In this document: one piece after another, positions 1 to 21,632 of the stretch
Position numbering within the stretch: the first letter of the stretch is position 1
Layout of the letters: each line of letters begins with the position of its first letter
Source: a virus
Length of the DNA: 24,686 bases
Reading direction: 5' to 3' (one strand)
Virus record (IMG/VR): IMGVR_UViG_3300032242_002798
Span: 1-24,686 of that record
The notes under the pieces: model-generated
Databases searched by the model: none
The model's input: only the letters and a program-made list of their open reading frames with translations
What the model was told of the DNA's origin: nothing
Made by a program: the position numbers and the translations under genes

Positions 1-1155
1 CCATTGATTTACTGTTCCTGCTAACAGAGTTTTTACCAGTTTATCTAAAAATACATGTACACTGAATAGCCCGTTGCTTTCAAGTGGCTCAATAAATCCT
101 GCGCTGAGTCCAATAGCTACTACATTCTTTACAAATATACGTCTATGGATACCTGTTCTAAACTGTATACTATTAAATTCAAGTGAATCTACTTCTTGCC
201 TAGTACGAGGATATTTCATTTTATCACTCATTAGATGCTGTTTAAATTCTTCTAGTGCATCTTCGGGCGTGATAAATTTATCGCTATAAACATAACCTGT
301 ACCAATTCTTTCCCAACTAGGAATATTCCAGACCCAACCATTGCCCAGTGCTGTACAGTTAGTATATGGTTCTAGTTCTTCTTCTTTATTTTTGTAAGGT
401 ATGCGTGTAGCCCAAGCACGATTGTTGGGTAACATATCACTATAAGAAAGCCACTCTTCTTTAAGTGCGCCTTCGAGTAGGAGACTTTTAAATCCAGTAC
501 AATCTATAAACAGTTGTGAATCTATAGCTGTTCCATCAGTAAGCACAAGTGATTCTACTCCTTTGTCAGATGTTGTAATATCAGCTACCGTAGAACTGAT
601 TAGTTTTACACCACGTGGAATGCAGTAATTGTCTCTAAGCCATGCACCGAATTTGGTAGCATCAAAGTGATATGCGGCTGTATATTTGGGATTAAAACTG
701 CCAAATTTACCGTTGCGATTTAGACTAAATTTATTAGTTTCAAATAGCGCGGCATGCGGGAAAAAACTTCTAACTAGGTCGCTATTAGGAGTGTTTGGAT
801 AAACTGCTTTCTTAATAAACCAATCAAATACACCGTGTTTGGTTCCTGCTAGATGAGCATTGCCAAAGGGATAGTGAAATCCCCCATCTCCTATTTCGCT
901 GAAATCTGTAAATTTTATACTGAGCTTGTAACTAGCATCAGTATGTTTCATGAAATCTAATTCATCGATTTCTAATACAGCACAGTATTCTTTGATGCTT
1001 TGTAGTGTGCTTTCACCGACTCCTACAGTAGGATAATCTGGACTTTCTACCACTGAAATATCCCAGTTAGGAAACATCTTAATTAGCATGGCTGCCGACA
1101 TCCAGCCAGCACTTCCACCTCCTACAATTACAATTTTACTGAGATTTTTAATCAT
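1..1155 (-). CDS. Flavin-dependent tryptophan halogenase-like protein, 3' part cut by window edge
   Basis: Translating the minus strand from the ATG at 1155 gives an open frame of about 385 codons that reaches the window start without a stop, so the C-terminus is missing. Residues 11-17 read GGGSAG-type (FAD-binding GxGxxG), residue K77 lies in DASYKLSIKF and matches the catalytic lysine of PrnA/RebH, residues about 273-278 are WVWNIP (the family WxWxIP motif), and IEPLESNG near the edge matches the segment with the catalytic glutamate. These enzymes use FADH2, O2 and halide to halogenate an aromatic substrate, classically tryptophan; the marine cyanophage enzyme VirX1 is a known viral relative that prefers iodide. 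No flavin reductase is seen nearby. The gene diverges from the Gly-rich fibre gene across a 114-bp gap. No clear ribosome site precedes the ATG. Family assignment is firm; substrate is unknown. Confidence 0.9.
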   Translation of the reverse strand, partial: MIKNLSKIVIVGGGSAGWMSAAMLIKMFPNWDISVVESPDYPTVGVGESTLQSIKEYCAVLEIDELDFMKHTDASYKLSIKFTDFSEIGDGGFHYPFGNAHLAGTKHGVFDWFIKKAVYPNTPNSDLVRSFFPHAALFETNKFSLNRNGKFGSFNPKYTAAYHFDATKFGAWLRDNYCIPRGVKLISSTVADITTSDKGVESLVLTDGTAIDSQLFIDCTGFKSLLLEGALKEEWLSYSDMLPNNRAWATRIPYKNKEEELEPYTNCTALGNGWVWNIPSWERIGTGYVYSDKFITPEDALEEFKQHLMSDKMKYPRTRQEVDSLEFNSIQFRTGIHRRIFVKNVVAIGLSAGFIEPLESNGLFSVHVFLDKLVKTLLAGTVNQW

Positions 1156-1205: not shown

Positions 1206-1269
1206 ACTGTATATATTTAACAGGGTGTTTTAAAGCCACCCTTAATTGCGAAATAATCAAAGGAAAGAT

Positions 1270-3174
1270 ATGGCACAGCTACAAGGTATAACTATTAGCG
1301 ATACTGGTTATCTACAACTTCCATCCGGCCCAACTACAGGACGTGGCCCAGTACTACAATACTTTAATGCTACAGGTCCAGCAACATTTAATGTGCCAAC
1401 TGGCGTTACTAGCGTACAAGTGTTGGTAGTAGCAGGTGGTGGCGGAACTGGTAACGGACAGTATCATAATGGTGGTGGTGGAGCCGGTGGTGTTGTATTA
1501 CATCCTTCGTATCCAGTAACGCCTGGCGGTACAGTAAGTCTTTCAGTTGGTGCGGGTGGAGCTGGTGGAGCGGCTGGAGGTACTGGAAATGTGGGTGGTA
1601 ATGGTGGTAACTCAACATTTGGCACACTAACTGCCTTAGGTGGCGGATACGGCGGACTTTATCCCGCAACTGCAGGAGCACCCGGCGGATCAGGTGGTGG
1701 CGGTGCTGGCAATATTACAGCGTCATATCCATCAGTAGCCTCAACAGGATGGGGCGGCGGGTCAGCAACGCAACCAGCACAGACAAATACAGGTGCAACA
1801 GTTAACGCAGGTTATCCAGGCGGCAATGGTGCAACTGCTGGTAATATTCCTACAGGCAGTCAAGGCGCAGGCGGTGGAGGCGGTGGTGCTGGTGGTGCTG
1901 GTGGTGCTGGAGGTGCGGGTGGTGCGGGTGATGGTGGAGTTGGTGTTAGCATAAGTATCACAGGTGCTCCCCAATATTTTGGTGGTGGTGGTGGTGGCAG
2001 TTTATATCTTCCATCTAATCCTGTTACACATGGCGCAAAAGCAGGTGTCGGAGGCCTAGGTGGTGGTGGCGCAGGTGGAACAGATCAACGTCCCACAGAC
2101 CCAGATGAAAATAATGGAAGAATTAACACAGGTGGCGGTGCAGGTGGATTAGAGCGTTGGGATAATAGAGCAGGTGGCACTGGCGGCCCTGGTATTATTA
2201 TCGTCAGTTATCAATTGCCAAACACTCAAACACCTACAGTAGGACAAGCAAGATTTAACACTGATGTAAATCAACCAGAAGTCTATAACGGTACCTATTG
2301 GGAACCGATGCAAAAGACAATAACATATTTTGAGCATCCTGGTTACTACACATTCCAAGTTCCGCAACATGTTAATGCTGTTGAAGTACTTGTAGTAGGT
2401 GGCGGCGGTGCAGGTGGCTCAATCGGTGCAGGTGGCGGTGCAGGTGGACATGTTTATTATGCCAAATATGCTGTACAACCGGGTGGTAATATACCAGTTA
2501 AAGTTGGCCAAGGTGGAACATATTATTCAGGTTGGCACGATCAGGCTAGCGGCAATCCATCTAGCTTTCCTCGAACAGACGGTATAAGCGGAAATCAAGG
2601 TCAACCAAGTCACTTTGGCGCAGTTATAGCCTACGGTGGCGGAGCAGGTTCTGATAACTCTGGTAACGGAGGTAGTGTTTCTAGCGGTGGAACTGCTCAA
2701 TGGGGCGGAAGTGGCGGTGGTGGTAGCTATTCTACTTCTACACTAGCTGGATACGGAGTTCCGGGTCAAGGGAATCCAGGCGGTACAGGTTACCCTGGGC
2801 CTCCTCATGCTGCCGGTGGTGGCGGTGGTGCTGGCGGTGCAGGCGGACCAGCAGGCCCGGGTGCTGGTGGTGGTGGTGGTGCTGGTCTAGCTAATTCGAT
2901 TACTGGCTCTCCTGTACTACGAGCAGGTGGTGGAGGAGGCGGCAGTCATAATACAAGTAATTCAGGCCCCGGTGGCACCGGTGGTGGTGGTGGCGGCGGA
3001 TATTATACCAACGAATCAGCACCATATGCTGGTTATAGTCAACCAGCTGGCCCTCGTGCTAGCCCTGGACAATACGCTACAGGCGGTGGCGGTGGCGGTG
3101 GCGGCTATAACGGTTCAAACCCGTACGGAACTGCAGGTTGGGGCGGCCCAGGTGTAGTTATAATACGATACTAA
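1270..3174 (+). CDS. Glycine-rich phage adhesin/tail fibre protein with two Gly-rich domains
   Basis: The start is the ATG at 1270, preceded by AAAGGAAAG; a longer frame from a TTG at 1246 has no ribosome site. The 634-residue product has a short N-terminal part, then two related domains. Each begins with a TFxVPxxVxxVxVLVV strand followed by GGGG, runs through about 220-250 residues dominated by Gly with Ala, Ser, Tyr and Asn, and closes with GGPG plus a short hydrophobic strand (IIIVSY in the first, VVIIRY in the second). A linker at about 318-350 holds a PTVGQARFNT...VYNGTYW motif seen in other tail proteins here. Gly-rich domains of this sort occur in phage fibre tips; the Salmonella phage S16 gp38 adhesin folds as stacked polyglycine-II helices with host-binding loops. 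A receptor-binding role is inferred from composition and position. The two small genes just downstream share its transcript. Long GGT runs could vary in copy number. Confidence 0.75.
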   Translation: MAQLQGITISDTGYLQLPSGPTTGRGPVLQYFNATGPATFNVPTGVTSVQVLVVAGGGGTGNGQYHNGGGGAGGVVLHPSYPVTPGGTVSLSVGAGGAGGAAGGTGNVGGNGGNSTFGTLTALGGGYGGLYPATAGAPGGSGGGGAGNITASYPSVASTGWGGGSATQPAQTNTGATVNAGYPGGNGATAGNIPTGSQGAGGGGGGAGGAGGAGGAGGAGDGGVGVSISITGAPQYFGGGGGGSLYLPSNPVTHGAKAGVGGLGGGGAGGTDQRPTDPDENNGRINTGGGAGGLERWDNRAGGTGGPGIIIVSYQLPNTQTPTVGQARFNTDVNQPEVYNGTYWEPMQKTITYFEHPGYYTFQVPQHVNAVEVLVVGGGGAGGSIGAGGGAGGHVYYAKYAVQPGGNIPVKVGQGGTYYSGWHDQASGNPSSFPRTDGISGNQGQPSHFGAVIAYGGGAGSDNSGNGGSVSSGGTAQWGGSGGGGSYSTSTLAGYGVPGQGNPGGTGYPGPPHAAGGGGGAGGAGGPAGPGAGGGGGAGLANSITGSPVLRAGGGGGGSHNTSNSGPGGTGGGGGGGYYTNESAPYAGYSQPAGPRASPGQYATGGGGGGGGYNGSNPYGTAGWGGPGVVIIRY

Positions 3175-3185
3175 GAGGAAACGAT

Positions 3186-3443
3186 ATGAGAAAAATTACT
3201 CGAGACGGACACGATCACGCTCTCACAATTACAGTTTTTAATGAAGACGGTACAGTTTTAGTCGAAGATGGTTATCCTACTCCTGCAGGATTTGATGACA
3301 ATGCTGAAAAACAAATTAATGAGCAACTAACAGCTCTTGGAAAACCATTGCTCACAGCCGAAGAAATTGTCTACATGCGAACTTTAGTGCATGTACCTTT
3401 ACCAGGCCAACCATTACGAAATCCACCCGAGGGAGCGAGTTAA
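3186..3443 (+). CDS. Small conserved-looking protein, first of a tandem pair
   Basis: Eighty-five residues starting at the ATG at 3186, preceded by AAGAGGAAACG 12 nt after the fibre stop. I do not recognise a family. It has a strand-rich N-terminal half (LTITVFNEDGTVLVEDGYP) and a helical C-terminal half with ALGKPLLTAEEI, both matched in the next gene, so the two are paralogues. Position directly behind the fibre gene suggests a fibre chaperone, a fibre-bound cap or an accessory virion protein, but nothing in the sequence decides this. Confidence 0.7.
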   Translation: MRKITRDGHDHALTITVFNEDGTVLVEDGYPTPAGFDDNAEKQINEQLTALGKPLLTAEEIVYMRTLVHVPLPGQPLRNPPEGAS

Positions 3444-3444
3444 A

Positions 3445-3699
3445 GTGAGAAAATTTGTAAGACCAAGCATAGAGATGGGGGGATATACTGTTGAAGCGTA
3501 CGACGAGAATGGTATGCTAATGTTTATCCACAAGTATCCAACTCATCACGCTATACATCATTATGGAATTCTAGAGGCAGATATGAATAAAGATTTATTT
3601 GCACTCGGAAAACAGCCATTAACAGATGAAGAGATTGCTATGATCAAAGCATTATTTCCTGACGAAATGGTTAGATGCCAGGATTGCTCAACTGATTAA
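3445..3699 (+). CDS. Small protein, second of a tandem pair
   Basis: Eighty-four residues if started at the GTG at 3445, one base after the stop of the preceding gene, with GGGAG about 10 nt upstream. An in-frame ATG at 3391 would put the start deep inside the previous gene and add residues with no match to the paralogue, so the GTG is preferred. The product aligns with its neighbour: YTVEAYDENGMLMFIHKYPT against LTITVFNEDGTVLVEDGYPT, and ALGKQPLTDEEIAMIKAL against ALGKPLLTAEEIVYMRTL. It ends with a CQDC pair absent from the first copy. The stop overlaps the stop of the convergent oxygenase gene by a few bases. Function unknown. Confidence 0.65.
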   Translation: MRKFVRPSIEMGGYTVEAYDENGMLMFIHKYPTHHAIHHYGILEADMNKDLFALGKQPLTDEEIAMIKALFPDEMVRCQDCSTD

Positions 3700-4325
3700 T
3701 GAGTTTTAAAAAGCAAATTGCCAGATATCGATATTCTTGTTTTATCACTTGAATAAAAAGGATAAACTGAATGACTCAGTGATGAGGGAAAAAGTAAAAT
3801 TTTTCCCTCATATTTTTTGTCAGCAGGTATTTCTAAGAAGCATATACGACCTAATGAGTTAGTATAGGCAAATTGAAATACACCACCTACATCATTGTTT
3901 GACTGTCTTCCTAAACTTACACGGCGTTCTTCTTCCATAGTGTAAGGTATAGTGATCCACAAAACAAAGCTCATTATGCCCGAGTGTTGATGTATAGGAT
4001 TATATTCTCCGGCTTGTTGGAAATTAATCCAGGGAGCTGTCATCTCAAATGATACATCGGCTGTTAGAATACGAATATGTTCGAAATAATCATAACGTCT
4101 ATCGTATTTCCACAATAATTCAACTATATATTTTTCTAACAACGCCCTAATTTCAAGATCTTCAAGTTCAACTTCTTTTAAGATATGTCCTTGTAGCTTA
4201 TAGTTAGCAGGAGAAACGCTACTAGGGTTATGCTCAATGTTATCAATGCAATTTTTAATTTTAGAAAATAATTCTATAGGTACCGTTTCCATGAGGTACC
4301 CAAGATTAGGAAAATCAATATTCAT
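3696..4325 (-). CDS. 2OG-Fe(II) oxygenase of the phage type (PF13759-like)
   Basis: The product has 209 residues. PWINFQQAGEYNPIHQHSG at 98-116 followed by a hydrophobic strand is typical of the phage 2OG-FeII_Oxy_5 type; H112/H114 lie at the iron site, with distal H185 in FPSSLSHSVYPF and R197 likely binding the 2OG carboxylate. Such enzymes couple 2-oxoglutarate decarboxylation to hydroxylation of a protein, nucleotide or small molecule; the substrate here is unknown. It is the last gene of the minus-strand cassette and its ATG overlaps the preceding stop (ATGA), implying coupled translation. Its codons for residues about 171-182 also form a plus-strand terminator hairpin. Its 3' end overlaps the convergent small gene. 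Confidence 0.8.
   Translation of the reverse strand: MNIDFPNLGYLMETVPIELFSKIKNCIDNIEHNPSSVSPANYKLQGHILKEVELEDLEIRALLEKYIVELLWKYDRRYDYFEHIRILTADVSFEMTAPWINFQQAGEYNPIHQHSGIMSFVLWITIPYTMEEERRVSLGRQSNNDVGGVFQFAYTNSLGRICFLEIPADKKYEGKILLFPSSLSHSVYPFYSSDKTRISISGNLLFKTH
3782..3818 (+). terminator. Rho-independent terminator of the fibre operon, inside an antisense gene
   Basis: ATGAGGGAAAAA at 3782-3793 and TTTTTCCCTCAT at 3800-3811 pair perfectly over 12 bp around a six-base loop, followed by ATTTTTT. Read on the minus strand the same hairpin is followed by CACTGAG, so it should terminate only plus-strand transcripts, about 80 nt past the second small gene. Confidence 0.75.
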
Positions 4326-5038
4326 GATACGTGTGCTTTACGTTTTTTATATTTGCCAAGAAAGCTAGACTGATAGCCAAATTTACTAAACTTCATTTCA
4401 TATTCTTGTAAAGATAGAAGATGCTGATGAACTACAACTTCTGCATCAGATAATGGTATAAGCTGAGCAATAGGACTACCAGCTTCTAACTCTATACGAC
4501 AGTCTGTTTTTGGTAACAGTGCATTAACATGAGTAGCTACTTGCGTTTTAAAATTCATAATACCGGGTAACTGATGCATGCTATTCAGCAATGGTATTTG
4601 ATTCCACATTGGGCTTATCATTAAAAAATCAACTCCAGTTTTTTCTACTAGCGACCATGGAGAAAGGATTTTAATATGATGATAATTATTGAATTCAGAT
4701 CCTAGTTGTTCAGTACTGTGTGTATCTATTACTCCACCATCCGGTGCAGAATATTGATATCTCCATCCGCCTTCGCTAGATTCTAGAATTACATCGCACC
4801 AAAGAGGAAGCATAATCCCTGTTTTGAAGATGGCTGATAGTCCATCACAACGTTTAATCGTCGATTGCTTGAATTTTAAACCATATTCACTAGCAACTTC
4901 AAATGTAGGTGGCATAGATTTCCACCAACTAGGCAAAAAGTTCTTAGATTGATCAATTTTAAAATATTCATAAACGCCCGGATGACATGTAAAAGCATCT
5001 ACTGATATTTTTTTAGGTTTAAAAAAGAAACTGATCAT
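4322..5038 (-). CDS. Uncharacterised cassette protein, possibly DUF6065-like
   Basis: The product has 238 residues with no signal peptide or membrane segment. Visible blocks are LPSWWKSMPP at about 36-45, TIKRCDGLSAIFKTGIMLPLW around 60-80, a GGWRYQYSAPDGG turn, and a C-terminal LEAGSPIAQLIPL. This order (TIK-C-x-G block, then G.M.PLW, then a late GxPIAQxIP strand) recalls the DUF6065 layout, which I cannot confirm. The upstream neighbour shows a degenerate version of the same order, so the two may be distant paralogues. Both ends overlap neighbours by ATGA, placing it firmly in the operon. A binding or scaffold role beside the halogenase is conjecture. Confidence 0.6.
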   Translation of the reverse strand: MISFFFKPKKISVDAFTCHPGVYEYFKIDQSKNFLPSWWKSMPPTFEVASEYGLKFKQSTIKRCDGLSAIFKTGIMLPLWCDVILESSEGGWRYQYSAPDGGVIDTHSTEQLGSEFNNYHHIKILSPWSLVEKTGVDFLMISPMWNQIPLLNSMHQLPGIMNFKTQVATHVNALLPKTDCRIELEAGSPIAQLIPLSDAEVVVHQHLLSLQEYEMKFSKFGYQSSFLGKYKKRKAHVS

Positions 5039-5757
5039 AGAATATTCTTTTTAATTTCTTTAAGAATGATTTTATTTGAACGGGCCGCTAAAAATCTTTT
5101 GTATCTTGCGGCAAGCGGAACCCACGATTCCCAAACTGATGATTTACCACCGGTTGACGCATGTTGTCTTAGAGCATCCGTTATTTCAAATCTCACTAGC
5201 TTAACTGGATTAGGAGCATGAAAGTGTACATACGCCATAGCTTCGTCTTTTTCTGCACGGAATTCGTTGACGTTAGTATGTAAGCAGTATTCCAAATTAA
5301 TTAATCTAAACCATTTTGAAATATTAAATTTACCCGGAATCAAATTTCCATATTTTGCATGTTTAGGCTCTTCGAAATACGTATCAGTGATCATCATTTC
5401 CACGTCATCTTCACTAAAAAACGCCCATTGAAGTCCGTATTCAATCATTCGTCGATTAACAATACTACTTGGTCTAAATGCTGATGAAGTAATATAGTTT
5501 TTTTCTTTGGTTATTAAGTTAGTGCCGTCTAGCTCAAAATGAGTTGTTATCGGATTCGTTAGTACAAACGTACTTCTTGTAAATCCGCTAAATGCAGGGC
5601 AGTAAAAAAAGTTATTACCACGACCGGCAGCATCAAATTCGATTTTGTCCCCACGGATACTATCAAATACGCTATTAATATCTGGATATAACATATTCCA
5701 GTTATCCTCGCTTACAGGGAAGGCCGGCGCCCAATATACAATGCTATGCTTTGACAT
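5035..5757 (-). CDS. Uncharacterised cassette protein following the halogenase
   Basis: The product has 240 residues. It begins HSIVYWAPAFPV and carries FFYCPAFSGFTRSTFVLTNP around 50-69, a WAFFSEDDVEMMI strand, and PGKFNISKWFRLIN near 142-155. The arrangement parallels the downstream gene (C-containing block, hydrophobic strand, PG-FN block), supporting distant common origin, but identity is low. It overlaps the halogenase stop by 14 bases. The C-terminus is basic (RSNKIILKEIKKN). No catalytic motif is recognised; partner of the halogenase or a substrate-handling protein are both possible. Confidence 0.6.
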   Translation of the reverse strand: MSKHSIVYWAPAFPVSEDNWNMLYPDINSVFDSIRGDKIEFDAAGRGNNFFYCPAFSGFTRSTFVLTNPITTHFELDGTNLITKEKNYITSSAFRPSSIVNRRMIEYGLQWAFFSEDDVEMMITDTYFEEPKHAKYGNLIPGKFNISKWFRLINLEYCLHTNVNEFRAEKDEAMAYVHFHAPNPVKLVRFEITDALRQHASTGGKSSVWESWVPLAARYKRFLAARSNKIILKEIKKNIL

Positions 5758-7204
5758 TTCTAATTGCCTTTAAAAAATTCTTGTGAGATATAGTTCCCAC
5801 GGTTTCATCGTGTAGTTTAACATCTCTAATTAAATTGTCAACATAAATTTTTAGTTCAATCGGCAACATTTCATATTCTTCTCGAATTTTTTGATTGTTA
5901 AATAATCCTAATCCCATGGCAATAAAAATATGATGTCGTTCGGTGAACAACGCATAGGTACTATTTTGATTAAAATCTTCTCGAATTGGTAATTTAATTT
6001 GCCATCTTTCTAATTTTTCTTGCAGACTATCTGGTATTTCTAACGTTTTTAAATCCTGCCAAAATTTTGTATCTGTTCTAGGTGTTTGATAATGCATTAC
6101 AATAAAGTCTCGGATATTAATCATAATACTACTGACATCTTTATTGTAAGAATTTATAATTTTTTCATCATAATTAGGTAGCCGGTGCATTAGTAAAAAC
6201 ATCTGTTGTATGCTGGTACCTATACTAGTAGCTTCTAAAGGTTCTACAAAGTTTGCACTTAGTCCTACTGCACAGCAATTCTTAATCCATACTTTATCTA
6301 AGGCACCTGGATCAAATGTTAAATGCTTACCTACTGTAATTTCATGCCCTAAAAATGATTCAACTTCCTGTTTAGCTTGATCGGCATCAATATAATCGCT
6401 GTCAAAAATGTAGCCATTGCCACCTCGCCCAAACACCGGTATCCTGAATAACCATCCGTAGTCCATTGCCCTAGCTATGGTCCACATATTGTAATCGTCA
6501 GTGTCGGGTGTAGGGAAAGCAATAGCGGCTTTCATTTTTAAATACTTGCTGTAACTAGTCCACTTGGCTCCTAAGTTTCCTATTAGTACACGTTTAAATC
6601 CTGTACTGTCTATATAGAAATCAGCTGTATAAGTTTGTTTGTTACCTTTTAATTCTTTGATACCATTTTCATCACATACTGCTTCTAAAATTTCATCATC
6701 GACAACATCGATACTAAATTTTTCTGCAAGATTAGTAAGAAATGTATTCAACTTATTTGTGTTGAAATGAAACTGCATAGTGGGAAATTCATCAGGATTA
6801 GATAAAAACCATCTATTAACGGTGCTATTCCAAAATGGTTTTCCTACAAAATCTTGCGGTCTAGCATTTTTAGATATTAAATTAGCCAATACTATGGAAC
6901 ATTGAGCATCTTGTTTATCAAACTCTTTTTGTATGCTGTGCAGATAATCGGGTACACCCCAGTTTTGAAACATAATTCCAGCCTTGCAGGTAGCATCGCA
7001 TTCACGAACTACATCCCATAAGGAAATCCCTATGAAATCCATAAATTGTTTCCAATGCTCGGTACTCCCTTCACCTACTCCTATAATCCCTAACTTAGTA
7101 GATCTAACCACTGATACTTTTAGTTTAGGAAATCTTTTTTTAAGTATAAGTGCAGATATAAATCCAGCAGTTCCGCCACCAGCCACGCATACACTTTTAA
7201 TCAA
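5744..7204 (-). CDS. Flavin-dependent tryptophan halogenase-like protein, complete
   Basis: The product has 486 residues, a little shorter than the roughly 510-540 of PrnA-type enzymes. The start is TTG at 7204, since the FAD motif AGGGTAG follows at residues 8-14 and no ATG fits; AAGGA lies about 10 nt upstream. GVGEGST at 42-48, K74 in ECDATCKAGIMFQNW (catalytic lysine position) and VGLSANFVEPLEATS near 312-327 are all family features. The WxWxIP motif is altered to WLFRIP (251-256), the second Trp being Phe. It overlaps the upstream orphan by 8 bases and the downstream orphan by 14. It differs clearly from the other halogenase in this window, so the phage carries two types. Substrate, halide and regiochemistry cannot be read from sequence. 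Confidence 0.9.
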   Translation of the reverse strand: MIKSVCVAGGGTAGFISALILKKRFPKLKVSVVRSTKLGIIGVGEGSTEHWKQFMDFIGISLWDVVRECDATCKAGIMFQNWGVPDYLHSIQKEFDKQDAQCSIVLANLISKNARPQDFVGKPFWNSTVNRWFLSNPDEFPTMQFHFNTNKLNTFLTNLAEKFSIDVVDDEILEAVCDENGIKELKGNKQTYTADFYIDSTGFKRVLIGNLGAKWTSYSKYLKMKAAIAFPTPDTDDYNMWTIARAMDYGWLFRIPVFGRGGNGYIFDSDYIDADQAKQEVESFLGHEITVGKHLTFDPGALDKVWIKNCCAVGLSANFVEPLEATSIGTSIQQMFLLMHRLPNYDEKIINSYNKDVSSIMINIRDFIVMHYQTPRTDTKFWQDLKTLEIPDSLQEKLERWQIKLPIREDFNQNSTYALFTERHHIFIAMGLGLFNNQKIREEYEMLPIELKIYVDNLIRDVKLHDETVGTISHKNFLKAIRNVKA

Positions 7205-7598
7205 GGTATTTTGGTCCTTGACCTTTAATTATTTTTACTAGTTCATCCATTCTTCTAATATCTCCTGATGCTGTTACTAACGGATATTGAATGGCATCTA
7301 GACCAGTTCCTTCTTGCGTATAACCTTGAATTGCTATGTGTACTCCGGCTTTTTGGCATTCTTGATAAAATTCACTTTGAGTTAGATCATATTTAGGAAT
7401 TTGTACAACTTCAAATCGTCTGTTAACAAGTTCACTTAATTCGTGATGTCCTTGATCTGATAGCCAATTAGCAATCTCTTTGGCGGCGCTCTTATGTTGT
7501 AAATTAATGTTGCCGTAATCAAACATAGGAATCATTTCTAGTTTGATAATTTCCTGCATTTCAGCAGGAATATTGGTTACGTTTGTAGCTTGATCCAT
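7197..7598 (-). CDS. Small orphan protein upstream of halogenase
   Basis: The start is the ATG at 7598, with AAGGAG 6 nt before it; an in-frame upstream extension would run into the previous gene and is rejected. The 133-residue product is soluble and mixed alpha/beta. Visible parts are FDYGNINLQHKSAAKEIANW near 26-45, a VVQIPKYDLTQSEFYQE segment, and GTGLDAIQYPLVTASGDIRR near the end. I do not recognise a family. It begins 11 nt after the preceding oxygenase stop and overlaps the halogenase start by 8 bases, so it is co-translated with both. Candidate roles are a halogenase partner, a substrate carrier or an immunity-type factor; none is shown. Confidence 0.65.
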   Translation of the reverse strand: MDQATNVTNIPAEMQEIIKLEMIPMFDYGNINLQHKSAAKEIANWLSDQGHHELSELVNRRFEVVQIPKYDLTQSEFYQECQKAGVHIAIQGYTQEGTGLDAIQYPLVTASGDIRRMDELVKIIKGQGPKYLD

Positions 7599-7608
7599 AT
7601 AGTTCTCC

Positions 7609-8289
7609 TTATATTTGGAATTTTTTTGGGACGCCCGGCAAGATCCTTCCATCAAACTGATTTCTATAAGGACCTGCTAAGTCGTTATAATGTAAAAATA
7701 CCTGTGCGTGGTTCAACCCTTTGAATGCTTCTCTCCAGTGATCTAATTCACATCCCCTATAGATAATCATATCTCCAGGTTCCATATTAACCGGAACTCC
7801 GTCAACTTCTGGGTGTGCCGCACTTTCGATAAACATAGGCCAGTTGTAAGTTTTTTTCTCTTCTTCTGATAAATTTGAAACGTTGTATCCTAAACATAGG
7901 GTTGTACTAATTTCGCAACTATCGCGATCACTATGCCGTTTTAGTACTTCGCCGTGTTGATAATATCTCCAGTATGAATAGTTTGGACTTAGTTCTAATC
8001 CTGTATACTGTTGCATGATTTCATGGCTAGCGGTTAACAGAGTATCCATCATTGCATCGCCATAACAGCCATAGCTAATAGGAGCCTGTTCGTCTCCAAA
8101 TGCACCGTCCCAGTCTGCATTATAAGAGGCTTTGTCATATTGCGATTTGAAGTCCATTGCACGAACTTTTGTCGTAGCATACCGATACAGCAAACCGGCC
8201 ATGTTGGCATCTAAAAATTTTCTTATCACTACATATCTATTTTTTTGAAAATAATTTTGTATATTTTCTATAATTGCTAAATCTTCCAT
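7609..8289 (-). CDS. 2OG-Fe(II) oxygenase
   Basis: The product has 226 residues. YSYWRYYQHGEVLKRHSDRDS at 105-124 supplies the iron motif HxD (H119, D121), EPGDMIIYRG at 170-179 is the usual strand before the distal histidine, and H184 in LDHWRE completes the facial triad; K190 or R186 may contact 2OG. The double-stranded beta-helix order is intact, so it should be active. The ribosome site GGAG overlaps the end of the upstream gene. Third gene of the cassette. Hydroxylation or oxidative modification of an unknown substrate is inferred from the fold. Confidence 0.85.
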   Translation of the reverse strand: MEDLAIIENIQNYFQKNRYVVIRKFLDANMAGLLYRYATTKVRAMDFKSQYDKASYNADWDGAFGDEQAPISYGCYGDAMMDTLLTASHEIMQQYTGLELSPNYSYWRYYQHGEVLKRHSDRDSCEISTTLCLGYNVSNLSEEEKKTYNWPMFIESAAHPEVDGVPVNMEPGDMIIYRGCELDHWREAFKGLNHAQVFLHYNDLAGPYRNQFDGRILPGVPKKFQI

Positions 8290-8290
8290 T

Positions 8291-8848
8291 TTATCTCCAG
8301 TTTTCTGTGCTGAAAAAAAACACTTGTGTTAGTCTTCCAGTCTTGACATCATTTCCAAATCCAGGAACCATACTCCTGTGATATAACACACCTTTAAAAA
8401 GTATAAGTCTATTATAAATATTGCCTACAGTTGTGACAGGATCCCAATTTTCTATTTCATTATCTTGTATTTCATCTTTTAAATTAGGACCTCGATAAAA
8501 TACACCTGTATCTTTATATCTTAAAATCATAGTTCCAGAATTTAGTGGAGCATCAGGAGTTAGATATAGTATGCCAGACCATTCTTCACCATCGGTGTGT
8601 ACCCAACTTACATCCCCCTCTAAGCATAATTGAAATCTTGGTCCGCCTGCAAGATCAAAATCTACAGTTTTTTTACCTATAATATTTTCAATTTTTGCTT
8701 GGAGATAATTTCTATACCCATCATCGACAGGCGCACTACGCATACCGGGATAATTGCCTGGTCTGTCAAATTTTATATTCATCGCCGATTCTCTTACAAG
8801 ATCAGGATTTTCTAAAAAATTATCAACAACTATTGTAGTAACATTCAT
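8291..8848 (-). CDS. DUF6445-like 2OG-type oxygenase
   Basis: The product has 185 residues from the ATG at 8848, one base after the upstream stop. A TTG at 8869 would extend it by seven residues but leaves too little space after GGAG. The N-terminal VVDNFLENPDLVRESAM and GNYPGMRS at 31-38 are typical of the DUF6445 family, often met near tryptophan halogenases in bacteria. WVHTDGEEWSGILYLTP at 82-98 gives H84 and D86; distal H157 in LYHRSM and R172 complete a 2OG-Fe(II) site. Co-occurrence with a halogenase here repeats that known bacterial association. Substrate unknown. Confidence 0.8.
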   Translation of the reverse strand: MNVTTIVVDNFLENPDLVRESAMNIKFDRPGNYPGMRSAPVDDGYRNYLQAKIENIIGKKTVDFDLAGGPRFQLCLEGDVSWVHTDGEEWSGILYLTPDAPLNSGTMILRYKDTGVFYRGPNLKDEIQDNEIENWDPVTTVGNIYNRLILFKGVLYHRSMVPGFGNDVKTGRLTQVFFFSTENWR

Positions 8849-8849
8849 G

Positions 8850-9605
8850 TTAGACAAAAGGTTGCCCAAGACTCCACAGTACTAAACTGTATCGTGTGCC
8901 TCTAGTAACAGGTGTTACACAATGGTCTAAAAAGCTAGGAAATACAACAATACTACCCTGTGGGCGAATTTCCTCGCATTCGTAAAATTGATCACGTTCA
9001 ACGTGACGTCCAAAATCAAACTTAAGATTGCCTCCGTCGTAGTCGCCCGGTGCATTAAGATTAAGTGTTAGAGAAATTTTTCTAACTTTGCCAACCATCT
9101 GACTAGTAGTAACCCATCCTTGCGGTAATTTTCCATCTTCTTTTGGTAATTCTGGGTGTACACCGTAGATATAACGCTTATAAGCAGACGGACGATCACT
9201 TCCTCCGTCTTTGTGCCAACTATAAAATCCGCTTGGATCATACACTGTAAATTGAAAACTTTCACTAAAATCCCATTGCCAATTCCATCCAGCTTTAAAA
9301 TTAGCTTCGTGTACATACGGATGGATTAAATCATACAACCATTGTTCATTGAGCCACGTAACTTTACTGTCTCGAACATAAACATTATCTACGCCCTCTG
9401 CTTTTAGAGTTTGCATCGATGCTTCGCCTTGAGGCTGAGCATCAGGCCGGGCACCTTTTTGCATCTCACCATAAGTATAAGCTTCTACATTCCTACCCTC
9501 GGACTTTTGTTTCTCAATCTTTTCGAGACCAAGATCGATAATTCGCTGGCAAGTTTCTGGTGGAATTGCTTCTTTAAAAAAATAATATTGATTTGTCAGT
9601 TGCAT
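8850..9605 (-). CDS. PKHD-type prolyl-4-hydroxylase-like 2OG-Fe(II) oxygenase
   Basis: The product has 251 residues. SFQFTVYDPSGFYSWHKDGG at 116-135 gives iron ligands H131 and D133; FPSFLDHCVTPVTRGTRYSL at 222-241 gives distal H228 and the 2OG-binding R238, and GGNLKFDF is the expected strand between them. This is the layout of PiuC/PKHD-type hydroxylases and of the prolyl-4-hydroxylase-like genes widespread in marine T4-like phages. It is the first gene of the cassette, with AGGGA before the ATG at 9605 and a late promoter 26 nt upstream. Activity is likely since all ligands are present; whether the substrate is peptidyl proline is not shown. Confidence 0.88.
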   Translation of the reverse strand: MQLTNQYYFFKEAIPPETCQRIIDLGLEKIEKQKSEGRNVEAYTYGEMQKGARPDAQPQGEASMQTLKAEGVDNVYVRDSKVTWLNEQWLYDLIHPYVHEANFKAGWNWQWDFSESFQFTVYDPSGFYSWHKDGGSDRPSAYKRYIYGVHPELPKEDGKLPQGWVTTSQMVGKVRKISLTLNLNAPGDYDGGNLKFDFGRHVERDQFYECEEIRPQGSIVVFPSFLDHCVTPVTRGTRYSLVLWSLGQPFV

Positions 9606-9670: not shown

Positions 9671-10120
9671 CTAGATTAAATCTACTAGATCAAATACTGT
9701 TTGCAATTTAGTACGAATAGTTTTTGAACTAAAACTATTTCTTAATCCCTGATGCAAAGGTTTAGGAGTACGATCCATTGTAGCCCACGCCCACCCCTGG
9801 TGTTCATCACTTAGTACAGGAACGAATTCTGTGTCAATCACGCACAAGTAGGTATGAAAGTTGAACACACGATCGTTGCTCACAAACGTTTCTAAAGGAA
9901 TAGTTTTGATTATTTTGGGATGACTACTGATTTCTTCAGTAATTTCACGCTGTAGTCCCTGCCAAGGTGTTTCGCCTGTGACATTAGTACCGCCTACTAA
10001 CCCCCAAGTACCTTCATGTTTTCCTGTGGCCTTTTGTAGCAGTAGAAAACGTCTTGTAGATTTGGCATAAAATAATGCTCCACTACAGACTATTTGTTCT
10101 TTTACAGTATGATTTTCCAT
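9671..10120 (-). CDS. NUDIX hydrolase
   Basis: The product has 149 residues. The NUDIX box spans 44-66: G44, five residues, E50, seven residues, then REITEEIS (R58, E59, E62, E63), with Ser at the usual Gly near the end. The preceding KHEGTWGLVGG is the typical lead-in, similar to GDP-mannose mannosyl hydrolase and MutT-like phage enzymes. It should hydrolyse a nucleoside diphosphate linked to another moiety, as in nucleotide clean-up, ADP-ribose or sugar-nucleotide turnover; the substrate is not determined. It overlaps the end of gp15 by 19 bases, so it belongs to the gp14-gp15 transcript despite being metabolic. Confidence 0.88.
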   Translation of the reverse strand: MENHTVKEQIVCSGALFYAKSTRRFLLLQKATGKHEGTWGLVGGTNVTGETPWQGLQREITEEISSHPKIIKTIPLETFVSNDRVFNFHTYLCVIDTEFVPVLSDEHQGWAWATMDRTPKPLHQGLRNSFSSKTIRTKLQTVFDLVDLI

Positions 10121-13926: not shown

Positions 13927-14607
13927 ATGATCATTGGCGTATGCGGGTTTATTGGTTCTGGCAAAGATACTATTGCCGATTACTTGACTAACTTTCACGG
14001 ATTTCGACGAGAGTCATTTGCTAACAGTCTCAAGGATGCAGTAAGTCACGTGTTTGGTTGGGACCGAACTATGTTAGAAGGCCGCACAAAACAAGCACGT
14101 GAATGGCGTGAACAAGTAGATCCATGGTGGGCTGAACGTTTGAATATGCCTAATCTTACCCCACGTTGGATCTTACAATATTGGGGCACTGAAGTATGCC
14201 GCAAAGCATTCCATGATGATATTTGGATTGCATCATTAGAAAACAAACTACGCAATAGTAAAGACGACATTGTTATTTCAGACTGTCGATTTCCTAATGA
14301 AATTAAATCAATTAAAGATGCAGGCGGCATCGTAGTACGTGTTGTCCGCGGCTCTGAACCCGAATGGTATAATATGGCTGGTCGTGCTAATTCTGGCAGC
14401 GAAATTGACAAATTAGCACTTGAACGACTTGGAGTGCATGCTAGCGAAACTGCCTGGGTTGGAACTAAGTTTGATGCAGTATTAACTAACGATGGCACTA
14501 TAGACGAGCTAATGGCTAAAGTTAAAGATCTGGTACAAGATCACCCTGCTTCCACTTCATCCCTTCCTTATGTAGAACCCGCTGGCAGTTTGCACACACA
14601 GTCTTGA
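13927..14607 (+). CDS. gp1: Deoxynucleoside monophosphate kinase (T4 gene 1-like)
   Basis: The product has 226 residues (T4 gp1 is 241). A P-loop GFIGSGKDT lies at 7-15, followed by LKDAVSHVFGWDRTMLEGRTK, RWILQYWGTEVCR and IVISDCRFPNE, all typical of phage dNMP kinases. The enzyme phosphorylates dNMPs, including modified ones in T4, feeding triphosphate synthesis for phage DNA. The final ~22 residues (from DHPAST) are low-complexity and lie antisense to the HNH gene end, so the native C-terminus may have been replaced. It has its own host-type promoter with an AGGGG ribosome site, whereas its neighbours use late promoters. Confidence 0.9.
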   Translation: MIIGVCGFIGSGKDTIADYLTNFHGFRRESFANSLKDAVSHVFGWDRTMLEGRTKQAREWREQVDPWWAERLNMPNLTPRWILQYWGTEVCRKAFHDDIWIASLENKLRNSKDDIVISDCRFPNEIKSIKDAGGIVVRVVRGSEPEWYNMAGRANSGSEIDKLALERLGVHASETAWVGTKFDAVLTNDGTIDELMAKVKDLVQDHPASTSSLPYVEPAGSLHTQS

Positions 14608-14848
14608 GATTAATGTGATGGCAGTTGTCTAGATTGCCGTCGACGTGAAAAACAGCAAATACTTCTTTGTGAACACTTTTAAATCCACATTTATCACAGC
14701 TATTCTTAATTCTATAGCCAGCGCGATGCCAACGTGCTACTCCCTTTCCGCCAAGACATAGTTCGCATTTACGTCTATAGTAAGTTCGGCCGTTCTTGCG
14801 ATAGTTAACAGCGGCAGGCCTTAGGCCGCATATACATAGTGGTCTCAT
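14522..14848 (-). CDS. HNH-type homing endonuclease, small, zinc-finger
   Basis: The product has 108 residues. CxC at 5/7, CxxC at 28/31 and CxxC at 51/54, followed by FAVFHVDGNLDN (H68, D70, N72), HINLKTVC and CANC (C85/C88), form a zinc-finger HNH nuclease of the type frequent in T4-like marine phages as free-standing homing genes. It cuts DNA near its insertion site in related genomes to spread itself. It is inserted against the flow of the neighbouring genes and its last 86 bases are antisense to the dNMP kinase tail. The ATG at 14848 lacks a ribosome site but is preceded by CTTAAATA 6 nt away. Confidence 0.82.
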   Translation of the reverse strand: MRPLCICGLRPAAVNYRKNGRTYYRRKCELCLGGKGVARWHRAGYRIKNSCDKCGFKSVHKEVFAVFHVDGNLDNCHHINLKTVCANCQRVLHKEGMKWKQGDLVPDL

Positions 14849-20577: not shown

Positions 20578-21006
20578 ATGTCTAAGTTTGCTCGCGGCAA
20601 GTTCAGTATGAAACATCCTGAAAAGTATGTGGGCAACAAAATGCCTACATACCGTAGTAGTTGGGAATGGAGTTTTATGAACTTTTGTGACAACAATGAT
20701 AGTGTAGTCAAATGGGCGAGTGAAGCTATACAAATCCCCTACATCGATCCCCTAACAGAAAAACATACAGTATATGTACCTGATTTTTTTATACAATATG
20801 TAGATAAAAACGGTCGCATGCAACTAGAGCTAATCGAAATAAAACCTGCTAGCCAAACAGTTTTAGAACGAGTTGGCAAGAGTGTACACAATCAAAGCCA
20901 GTTTATTAAGAATCAAGCCAAGTGGGCCGCCGCCGGAAACTGGTGTAAACAACAGGGCCTAAAATTCCGTATTCTTAATGAAAATGATATATTCAGCCAT
21001 CGCTAG
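20578..21006 (+). CDS. gp4: gp4-like head completion protein
   Basis: The product has 142 residues (T4 gp4 is 150). TYRSSWEWSFMNFCDNN at 24-40, IPYIDP, VYVPDFF at 65-71 and ELIEIKP at 84-90 form a TnsA/restriction-nuclease-like core: E30, D69, E87 and K89 are candidate catalytic residues. In T4, gp4 acts with gp2 and gp13/gp14 to finish the DNA-filled head. It follows its neighbour by one base with no ribosome site of its own, implying reinitiation. Confidence 0.87.
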   Translation: MSKFARGKFSMKHPEKYVGNKMPTYRSSWEWSFMNFCDNNDSVVKWASEAIQIPYIDPLTEKHTVYVPDFFIQYVDKNGRMQLELIEIKPASQTVLERVGKSVHNQSQFIKNQAKWAAAGNWCKQQGLKFRILNENDIFSHR

Positions 21007-21020: not shown

Positions 21021-21632
21021 ATGAAAGAAATTATAAAAGATTACCTTTGGCTGGATAAATTTAAAGATATTGATAATCAAAAATTATATAATACTTGTTG
21101 TGAAATTGGAGAAACATTAGAAAAAGTTTTACCTCCAATATCCGAAGAACATAGCTACGGGTCATTTAGTTCGTTTTACTATAAAAAATATAATTTGTTT
21201 AGTTATGTATGCCCCGAAATACACAAACTATATGCATACATTTCTAAGTCAGTAGCTGACGAAATAGATCCTAATACAACTTACTACATTCAAGCATGGG
21301 TGAACTTATTCCAATCTGGGATGCATATTGATTGGCATGGACACTGGCCTCCAGATTTTAAAGTATATCACGGATTTTACTGTGTTAACTCCGAAACTAC
21401 TAACTCTTATACTGATTATAAAATACCCGGGCAAAAAGATATAATTAGAATAATGAGTGAGGACGGCCTGCTTGTATTTGGAAAATCCGACGGTGACGAA
21501 CACCGAAGCAGTCCTTGGGATAGTGCTGAGAAGTATAGAGTAACAATAGCATTTGATTTAGTACCTGCAGAAGCTGTTATTTTAACAGCTGATCCTAGCC
21601 ATAAATTTAATCATTACTTGCCATTTTTCTGA
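21021..21632 (+). CDS. 2OG-Fe(II) oxygenase-like protein
   Basis: The product has 203 residues. YYIQAWVNLFQSGMHIDWHGH at 88-108 gives the iron-site region with H102, H106 and H108 as candidates; the distal histidine is probably H161 in GDEHRSSPW, followed by R173 and VTIAFDLVP. The pattern resembles other phage 2OG oxygenases, though the first motif is HxxxH/HxH rather than HxD. It lies alone among structural and packaging genes rather than in the cassette. Its start lacks a ribosome site but follows a late-promoter element by 6 nt. Substrate unknown. Confidence 0.75.
   Translation: MKEIIKDYLWLDKFKDIDNQKLYNTCCEIGETLEKVLPPISEEHSYGSFSSFYYKKYNLFSYVCPEIHKLYAYISKSVADEIDPNTTYYIQAWVNLFQSGMHIDWHGHWPPDFKVYHGFYCVNSETTNSYTDYKIPGQKDIIRIMSEDGLLVFGKSDGDEHRSSPWDSAEKYRVTIAFDLVPAEAVILTADPSHKFNHYLPFF

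Follow-up and report, generated by a model that had tools for sequence, protein, structure and literature searches.

A conserved operon of oxygenases and a halogenase

What does a phage modify with four oxygenases and a flavin-dependent halogenase that are encoded in one operon between its fibre and neck genes? The question is raised by positions 3696-9605 of the IMG/VR virus record IMGVR_UViG_3300032242_002798, a genome fragment analysed here over its full 24,686 nucleotides (nt; hereafter the window). The answer we tentatively favour, with a confidence a little short of even, is that the island hydroxylates and halogenates the phage's own glycine (Gly)-rich tail adhesin.

A first-pass annotation made from the sequence alone had placed eight open reading frames (ORFs) on the minus strand in this region, and the positions and strand of all eight were confirmed. 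They encode four 2-oxoglutarate (2OG)-Fe(II)-type oxygenases, one flavin-dependent halogenase and three orphans, in the transcript order 2OG-FeII_Oxy_3, DUF6445, Oxy3, OrfB, HalB, OrfC, OrfD and OxyE. The product of the first gene (8850..9605) scored 45.8 bits with PF13640 against a cut-off of 27 and was 64-65% identical to its copies in the viral loci L058 and L015. It had been called a PKHD-type hydroxylase; as the NCBIfam YbiX model gave 42.4 bits against a cut-off of 143 and the sister models scored lower, we regard it as a PKHD-like member of the 2OG-FeII_Oxy_3 family instead. The DUF6445-family protein (8291..8848), likely a 2OG oxygenase, scored 41.4 bits with PF20043 (cut-off 24), and its HxD...H...R residues are 94-100% kept. 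It is followed by Oxy3 (7609..8289; phrog_2954), an oxygenase with invariant HxDR and HxR motifs, the small orphan OrfB (7197..7598; phrog_10937), the halogenase HalB (5744..7204, TTG start), the orphans OrfC (5035..5757; phrog_17480) and OrfD (4322..5038; phrog_7084), and OxyE (3696..4325; phrog_81), a 2OG-FeII_Oxy_5 protein (PF13759, 45.5 bits) with an intact HxH...H...R motif.

Every junction in the operon is either a gap of 1-10 nt or an overlap of 4-14 nt. Gaps of 1 nt separate the first oxygenase gene from the DUF6445 gene (ATG at 8848) and the latter from Oxy3. The OrfB frame is open from a TTG at 7655, and its likely start is the ATG at 7598, which has AGGAG upstream and would leave about 10 nt between Oxy3 and OrfB. 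OrfB overlaps HalB by 8 nt, HalB overlaps OrfC by 14 nt, and the OrfC/OrfD and OrfD/OxyE junctions are ATGA overlaps. A 12-bp terminator-like hairpin with a T tract, in plus-strand sense, lies at 3782-3811 within the 3′ end of OxyE, where two transcripts converge. Scanning the window for sigma-70 promoters gave 46 matches versus 40 in shuffled sequences, which is no excess.

Recurrence in other viral loci

A gene order unique to this contig had been named in the first-pass annotation as an argument against a dedicated module. The complete eight-gene order is repeated in L058 at 41-64% amino acid identity, and conservation of the exact order at this level of protein identity indicates that it is neither chance nor unique. 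L059 has the same order from DUF6445 onward, the first gene falling outside the stretch compared, and additionally repeats a Gly-rich gene and a second halogenase gene, HalA, on the far side of the operon. Both loci were found by a search seeded with OrfC, independently of the halogenase; as they possibly derive from one virus population, they were counted as a single independent recurrence. In L015/L016, the neck genes of the window occur together with NUDIX, oxygenase and OrfB genes, two halogenases and two Gly-rich genes, and an OrfB-family neighbour of Oxy3 was also present in L058, L072, L075, L079, L087 and L088. In 23 distinct halogenase-seeded IMG/VR loci, oxygenases of these families were present in 19 and numbered at least three in 13, with maxima of 11 oxygenases and five halogenases per locus.

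Such an assemblage might have no joint function, being a set of unrelated accessory genes gathered in a fibre hotspot, with the 2OG enzymes acting on nitrogen signalling through the 2OG pool. Cyanophages often carry genes for 2OG enzymes, for which a role in modulating 2OG was suggested (Sullivan et al. 2010, PMC3037559), and the composition of the clusters differs between loci. We consider this quite improbable given the exact order described above, the tight packing of the clusters (in 309/332 pairs of neighbouring cluster genes, the two overlap or are at most about 30-40 nt apart) and the concentration of 9/13 oxygenase genes of phage Syn9 in 4.4% of its genome (p 3e-10). Judged from sequence, the island is a real, recurrent and accessory tailoring module, and the proposed co-oriented module, flanked by fibre and neck genes, was borne out.

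Catalytic residues of the oxygenases and halogenases

Residue conservation supports assigning the four operon proteins to the 2OG-Fe(II) oxygenases, with their metal ligands intact: the triad (HxD/H...H) is kept in 4/4, and a clear 2OG-binding Arg is present in three, that of Oxy3 not being located with certainty. The labels ferrochelatase (phrog_2954), endonuclease V and minor coat protein, attached to such oxygenases in PHROG or GenBank, were rejected as misannotation because the HxD...H residues are kept.

In addition to HalB, the window contains a second flavin-dependent halogenase gene, HalA (1..1155, minus strand), which the first-pass annotation had overlooked and whose C-terminus is cut by the contig end. 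Both products far exceed the PF04820 cut-off of 21 bits (308 bits for HalA, 294 for HalB). HalA is 74% identical to the complete 530-residue HalA of L059, and its best match in the PDB was VirX1 (6qgm; E 6e-83), the one viral halogenase that has been characterised, reportedly described by Gkotsi et al. in 2019. Motif alignment showed that the GxGxxG motif, the catalytic Lys and the catalytic Glu are all kept in HalA (GGGSAG, YK, EPLES) and in HalB (GGGTAG, CK, EPLEA), and the WxWxIP motif is intact in HalA (GWVWNIP). Degeneration of the oxygenase or halogenase active sites, which would have spoken against a working pathway, was not observed in these catalytic residues. The lid motif (Y/H)YHGxxxYS, listed among the motifs of free-tryptophan halogenases (HYHGF..YS; PMC8269204), is not found in HalB, which has STYALFTERHH where the Trp 5-halogenase 8fov has HYHGFESYS; HalA ends at the contig edge before this position.

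A scan of genome contigs with HalB returned a single locus, L149, on what is a phage-like contig from the single-cell genome of an alphaproteobacterium. At L149:734-2050, the C-terminal part of a halogenase is fused behind an unrelated oxygenase-like N-terminus, next to tail-collar-like genes.

Predicted fold of OrfC and OrfD

OrfC and OrfD, encoded 3′ of the halogenase, had been described as related, and comparison of their families by hhalign agreed (E 2.3e-6). Confident AlphaFold2 models were obtained, with predicted local distance difference test scores of 92.1 for OrfC and 88.7 for OrfD. The top structural matches of the OrfD model were dUTPases (Z 11.8, root-mean-square deviation 2.2 over 119 residues); those of OrfC were also dUTPases, with Z up to 8.0, which is borderline taken alone. 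By sequence, the OrfD profile weakly found many dUTPases over motifs 3-4, and OrfC had no strong match in the PDB. These models predict a dUTPase-like beta-clip fold without the dUTPase catalytic residues for both proteins. OrfD was rejected as an active dUTPase on its catalytic motifs: it has PGIMNFKTQ in place of GLIDSDYQG, with loss of the motif-3 catalytic Asp in the window copy.

OrfD is a remote relative of DUF6065; the window copy itself gave no match to PF19541, which was matched by 9/24 aligned OrfD relatives (best 3.8e-41). No homologues of OrfC or OrfD were detected in isolate phages by tblastn at 1e-5, and those in isolates emerged through profiles only. Our literature search found no paper on DUF6445 or DUF6065. 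The models give two widespread orphan phage families (phrog_7084 and phrog_17480, DUF6065 relatives) a predicted fold. Several OrfC/OrfD copies occur per locus without oxygenases in L107, L128 and L099, where they likely have an independent role.

The predicted fold raises the alternative that OrfC and OrfD handle nucleotides and that the oxygenases and halogenase act on a base, as in nucleotide or DNA hypermodification. In other phages, relatives of OrfC are indeed encoded close to exonuclease, resolvase and terminase genes, and genes for a NUDIX hydrolase and a deoxynucleoside monophosphate (dNMP) kinase are nearby in the window. We nevertheless consider this very improbable, given the replaced motif and the helical C-terminus of OrfD in its model, a Pfam scan in which the window oxygenases matched 2OG-FeII_Oxy_3/_5 and DUF6445 with no TET/JBP match, and the presence of the dNMP kinase without the island in phage PA5oct.

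Proximity to tail adhesin genes

Between HalA and the operon, and divergently oriented from HalA, lies a gene for a putative Gly-rich tail-tip adhesin (1246..3174, plus strand) of 642 residues and 32% Gly, with Gly_rich_2 domains (PF21722, 109 bits; phrog_863, tail fibre assembly, E 7e-7). A homologue occupies the equivalent place in L059 and L015/L016. Straight after it on the plus strand are two small, overlapping and related-looking genes (3138-3443 and 3391-3699), possibly for fibre chaperones.

The same neighbourhood was seen elsewhere. Syn9 has just three Gly-rich ORFs in its 177-kb genome, and these end 0.6 kb before the VirX1 halogenase/oxygenase run. Sf-FR1 has a closely window-like order of three Gly-rich fibre genes, halogenase, OrfD, 2OG, DUF6445, Oxy3 and a neck gene, and in S-SRM01 the halogenase is flanked by a tail fibre gene and an annotated gp37-gp38 adhesin tip. 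Oxygenase and halogenase genes abut or interleave with Gly-rich genes in L015/L016, L013, L018 and L020. Agreement was looser in S-SSM6a, in which three Gly-rich genes lie about 1 kb before the first DUF6445 gene, and in S-H38 and HTVC008M. Clusters, unlike lone halogenases, lie near Gly-rich gp38-like adhesin genes: across isolate genomes, the combined permutation p was 0.0026 for five clustered versus 0.88 for five lone-halogenase genomes, a split made after inspection and for which the p value is uncorrected.

Gp38 adhesins of the T2 type consist of a polyglycine sandwich bearing receptor loops, and a loop Tyr of PP01 gp38 cross-links to the receptor (PMC12892980), so that aromatic halogenase targets in adhesins are plausible. 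We propose that the adjacent gp38-like adhesin, or proteins that accompany it, would have side chains hydroxylated by several of the 2OG-Fe(II) oxygenases and halogenated by one or two halogenases, and that this may tune receptor-binding chemistry or stability. OrfC and OrfD, translated with the halogenase, may serve as non-catalytic partners in substrate docking or as a scaffold. We infer the substrate, the reaction order, this role of OrfC and OrfD, and late expression. Support for modification of the adhesin comes from the missing free-tryptophan lid motif of HalB and the open active site of VirX1 (PMC8407142), from an additional 2OG-like gene in the structural operon of the window (21021-21632), and from bacterial DUF6445-halogenase loci that likewise lie beside surface receptors.

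Several points besides the uncorrected split weigh against this proposal. Co-location is the sole tie between the enzymes and the adhesin, and fibre regions are accessory-gene hotspots, so the neighbourhood may be passive. Whole isolate genomes were turned to after metagenomic contigs, most of them short, had shown no significant proximity (p 0.12), and lone phage halogenases occur far from adhesin genes. The WxWxIP motif of HalB is degenerate (GWLFRIP, with the second Trp replaced by Phe), as is common to several phage relatives. Finally, OrfC-type proteins are not confined to the halogenase module, as they are also present near DNA-metabolism genes in phages without halogenase or oxygenase.

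Loci with many paralogous oxygenases and as many as five halogenases suggest multiple targets, and Syn9 has further 2OG genes dispersed among its replication genes. Both facts would fit enzymes that act on a protein or receptor of the infected host, for takeover or for blocking superinfection. This is improbable in our view: an operon located between the fibre and neck modules is suggestive of late expression, and it is adhesin genes, not early genes, that the clusters accompany.

Phage backbone and other genes of the window

The phage had been called T4-like, which holds in a broad sense only. The order of its backbone genes (Ad2, dNMP kinase, sheath, tubes, terminase) is that of PA5oct (Arenbergviridae), with 56% identity in the terminase and 44% in the sheath, which marks the backbone as Arenbergviridae-like and jumbo, not cyanophage-type, as far as sequence comparison goes. 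The island is absent from PA5oct, which gave no halogenase and no Gly_rich_2 matches, and is therefore accessory to the jumbo-phage backbone.

A 2OG-oxygenase-like gene at 21021..21632 (plus strand), also overlooked in the first-pass annotation, was recognised by profile search; its HxH...H...R residues are kept, and it has no Pfam match. It lies within the structural run from tube to terminase genes, a region for which the annotated gene order of PA5oct includes no oxygenase. Upstream of the operon, a NUDIX hydrolase gene (9671..10120, minus strand; PF00293, 50 bits) is shared with L015/L016, and its membership in the module is uncertain. A TnsA-like endonuclease N-terminal domain (PF08722) is encoded at 20578-21006 (plus strand), where PA5oct has a head-closure gene, and a zinc-finger/HNH-like ORF at 14522-14848 (minus strand) lies opposite the dNMP kinase gene at its 3′ end, in antisense orientation and in the gap before the sheath gene.

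Comparison with known systems

Most known flavin-dependent halogenases are natural-product enzymes, which counts in favour of the main rival to adhesin modification, namely that the enzymes tailor a small molecule or glycan, yielding a metabolite or surface sugar that carries halogen and hydroxyl groups. Iyer et al. (2021, PMC7824862) proposed a possible system of this kind, for a secondary metabolite or a glycan, for the halogenase/2OG-Fe(II) oxygenase (2OGFeDO)/carbamoyltransferase cluster of the jumbo cyanophage S-SSM6a, which contains a halogenase, 2OG enzymes, a cupin, carbamoyltransferases and sugar-nucleotide genes. In vitro, VirX1 iodinates many small aromatics (PMC8407142). This explanation is a serious one, if on balance unlikely for the window: the genes scanned in this fragment included none for a scaffold-making enzyme, a carbamoyltransferase, a methylase or a carrier protein, and S-SSM6a itself has Gly-rich genes beside its cluster. 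The two clusters share a halogenase and several 2OG-type oxygenases near Gly-rich genes, whereas the carbamoyltransferases, methylase, cytidylyltransferase and RfaE of S-SSM6a did not turn up among the scanned genes of the window fragment. The cluster as a kind is prefigured by S-SSM6a, and the contrast drawn in the first-pass annotation with single viral halogenases is not supported. The adhesin link, the cluster context of VirX1 and the dUTPase-fold orphans were not found in the literature consulted.

VirX1 had likewise been cited as a single halogenase, an unfair contrast because it sits in a larger halogenase/oxygenase operon. Syn9 gp42 is identical, residue for residue after the first position, to the VirX1 crystal sequence, and the surrounding 14-gene run gp41-gp54 encodes two halogenases, an OrfC/D homologue (gp43) and about eight oxygenases. 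Syn10 has two halogenase places, and we infer that it shares this arrangement. The VirX1 locus of Syn9/Syn10 resembles the window in its overlapping halogenases, its OrfC/D homologue, the presence of several 2OG/DUF6445/Oxy3 oxygenases and its place next to fibre and Gly-rich genes; unlike the window, it belongs to another phage family, has two halogenases in tandem, shows no OrfB match and does not follow the exact eight-gene order. Halogenase identity between Syn9 and the window is about 25-41%.

The reviews consulted on VirX1 report non-natural substrates only. Marine and jumbo phages may have a dedicated system that hydroxylates and halogenates (Cl, Br or I) residues of their polyglycine tail adhesins after translation, in which partner proteins of dUTPase fold would present the substrate, and the native substrate of VirX1 would then be a phage adhesin; in this general form the idea is rather doubtful. 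Halogenation of adhesins, if it occurs, would introduce a new level of chemistry in receptor binding and offer a source of enzymes that halogenate proteins. VirX1 is a well-studied and unusually promiscuous viral halogenase, and its cluster context makes the question of its native substrate answerable in a cultured phage.

The association of DUF6445 with halogenases in bacteria, to which the first-pass annotation had pointed, was confirmed, with a halogenase within about 8 kb in 11/14 bacterial DUF6445 loci. DUF6445 is accompanied by one to three halogenases in the bacterial loci L166-L179. Two halogenase-DUF6445 loci were scanned, and both contained a TonB receptor, SapC and Cupin_8. The receptor there is bacterial, and no Oxy3/OrfC/OrfD set and no phage structural genes were found; what resembles the window is the grouping of a halogenase with DUF6445 and a cupin-type partner, there beside a surface receptor. 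Pelagibacter phage HTVC008M differs from the window in that its halogenase is about 4 kb off, next to terminase genes, and no OrfC/OrfD was found; it resembles the window in carrying Oxy3 and four 2OG genes near a Gly_rich_2 gene, with the halogenase inserted among structural genes.

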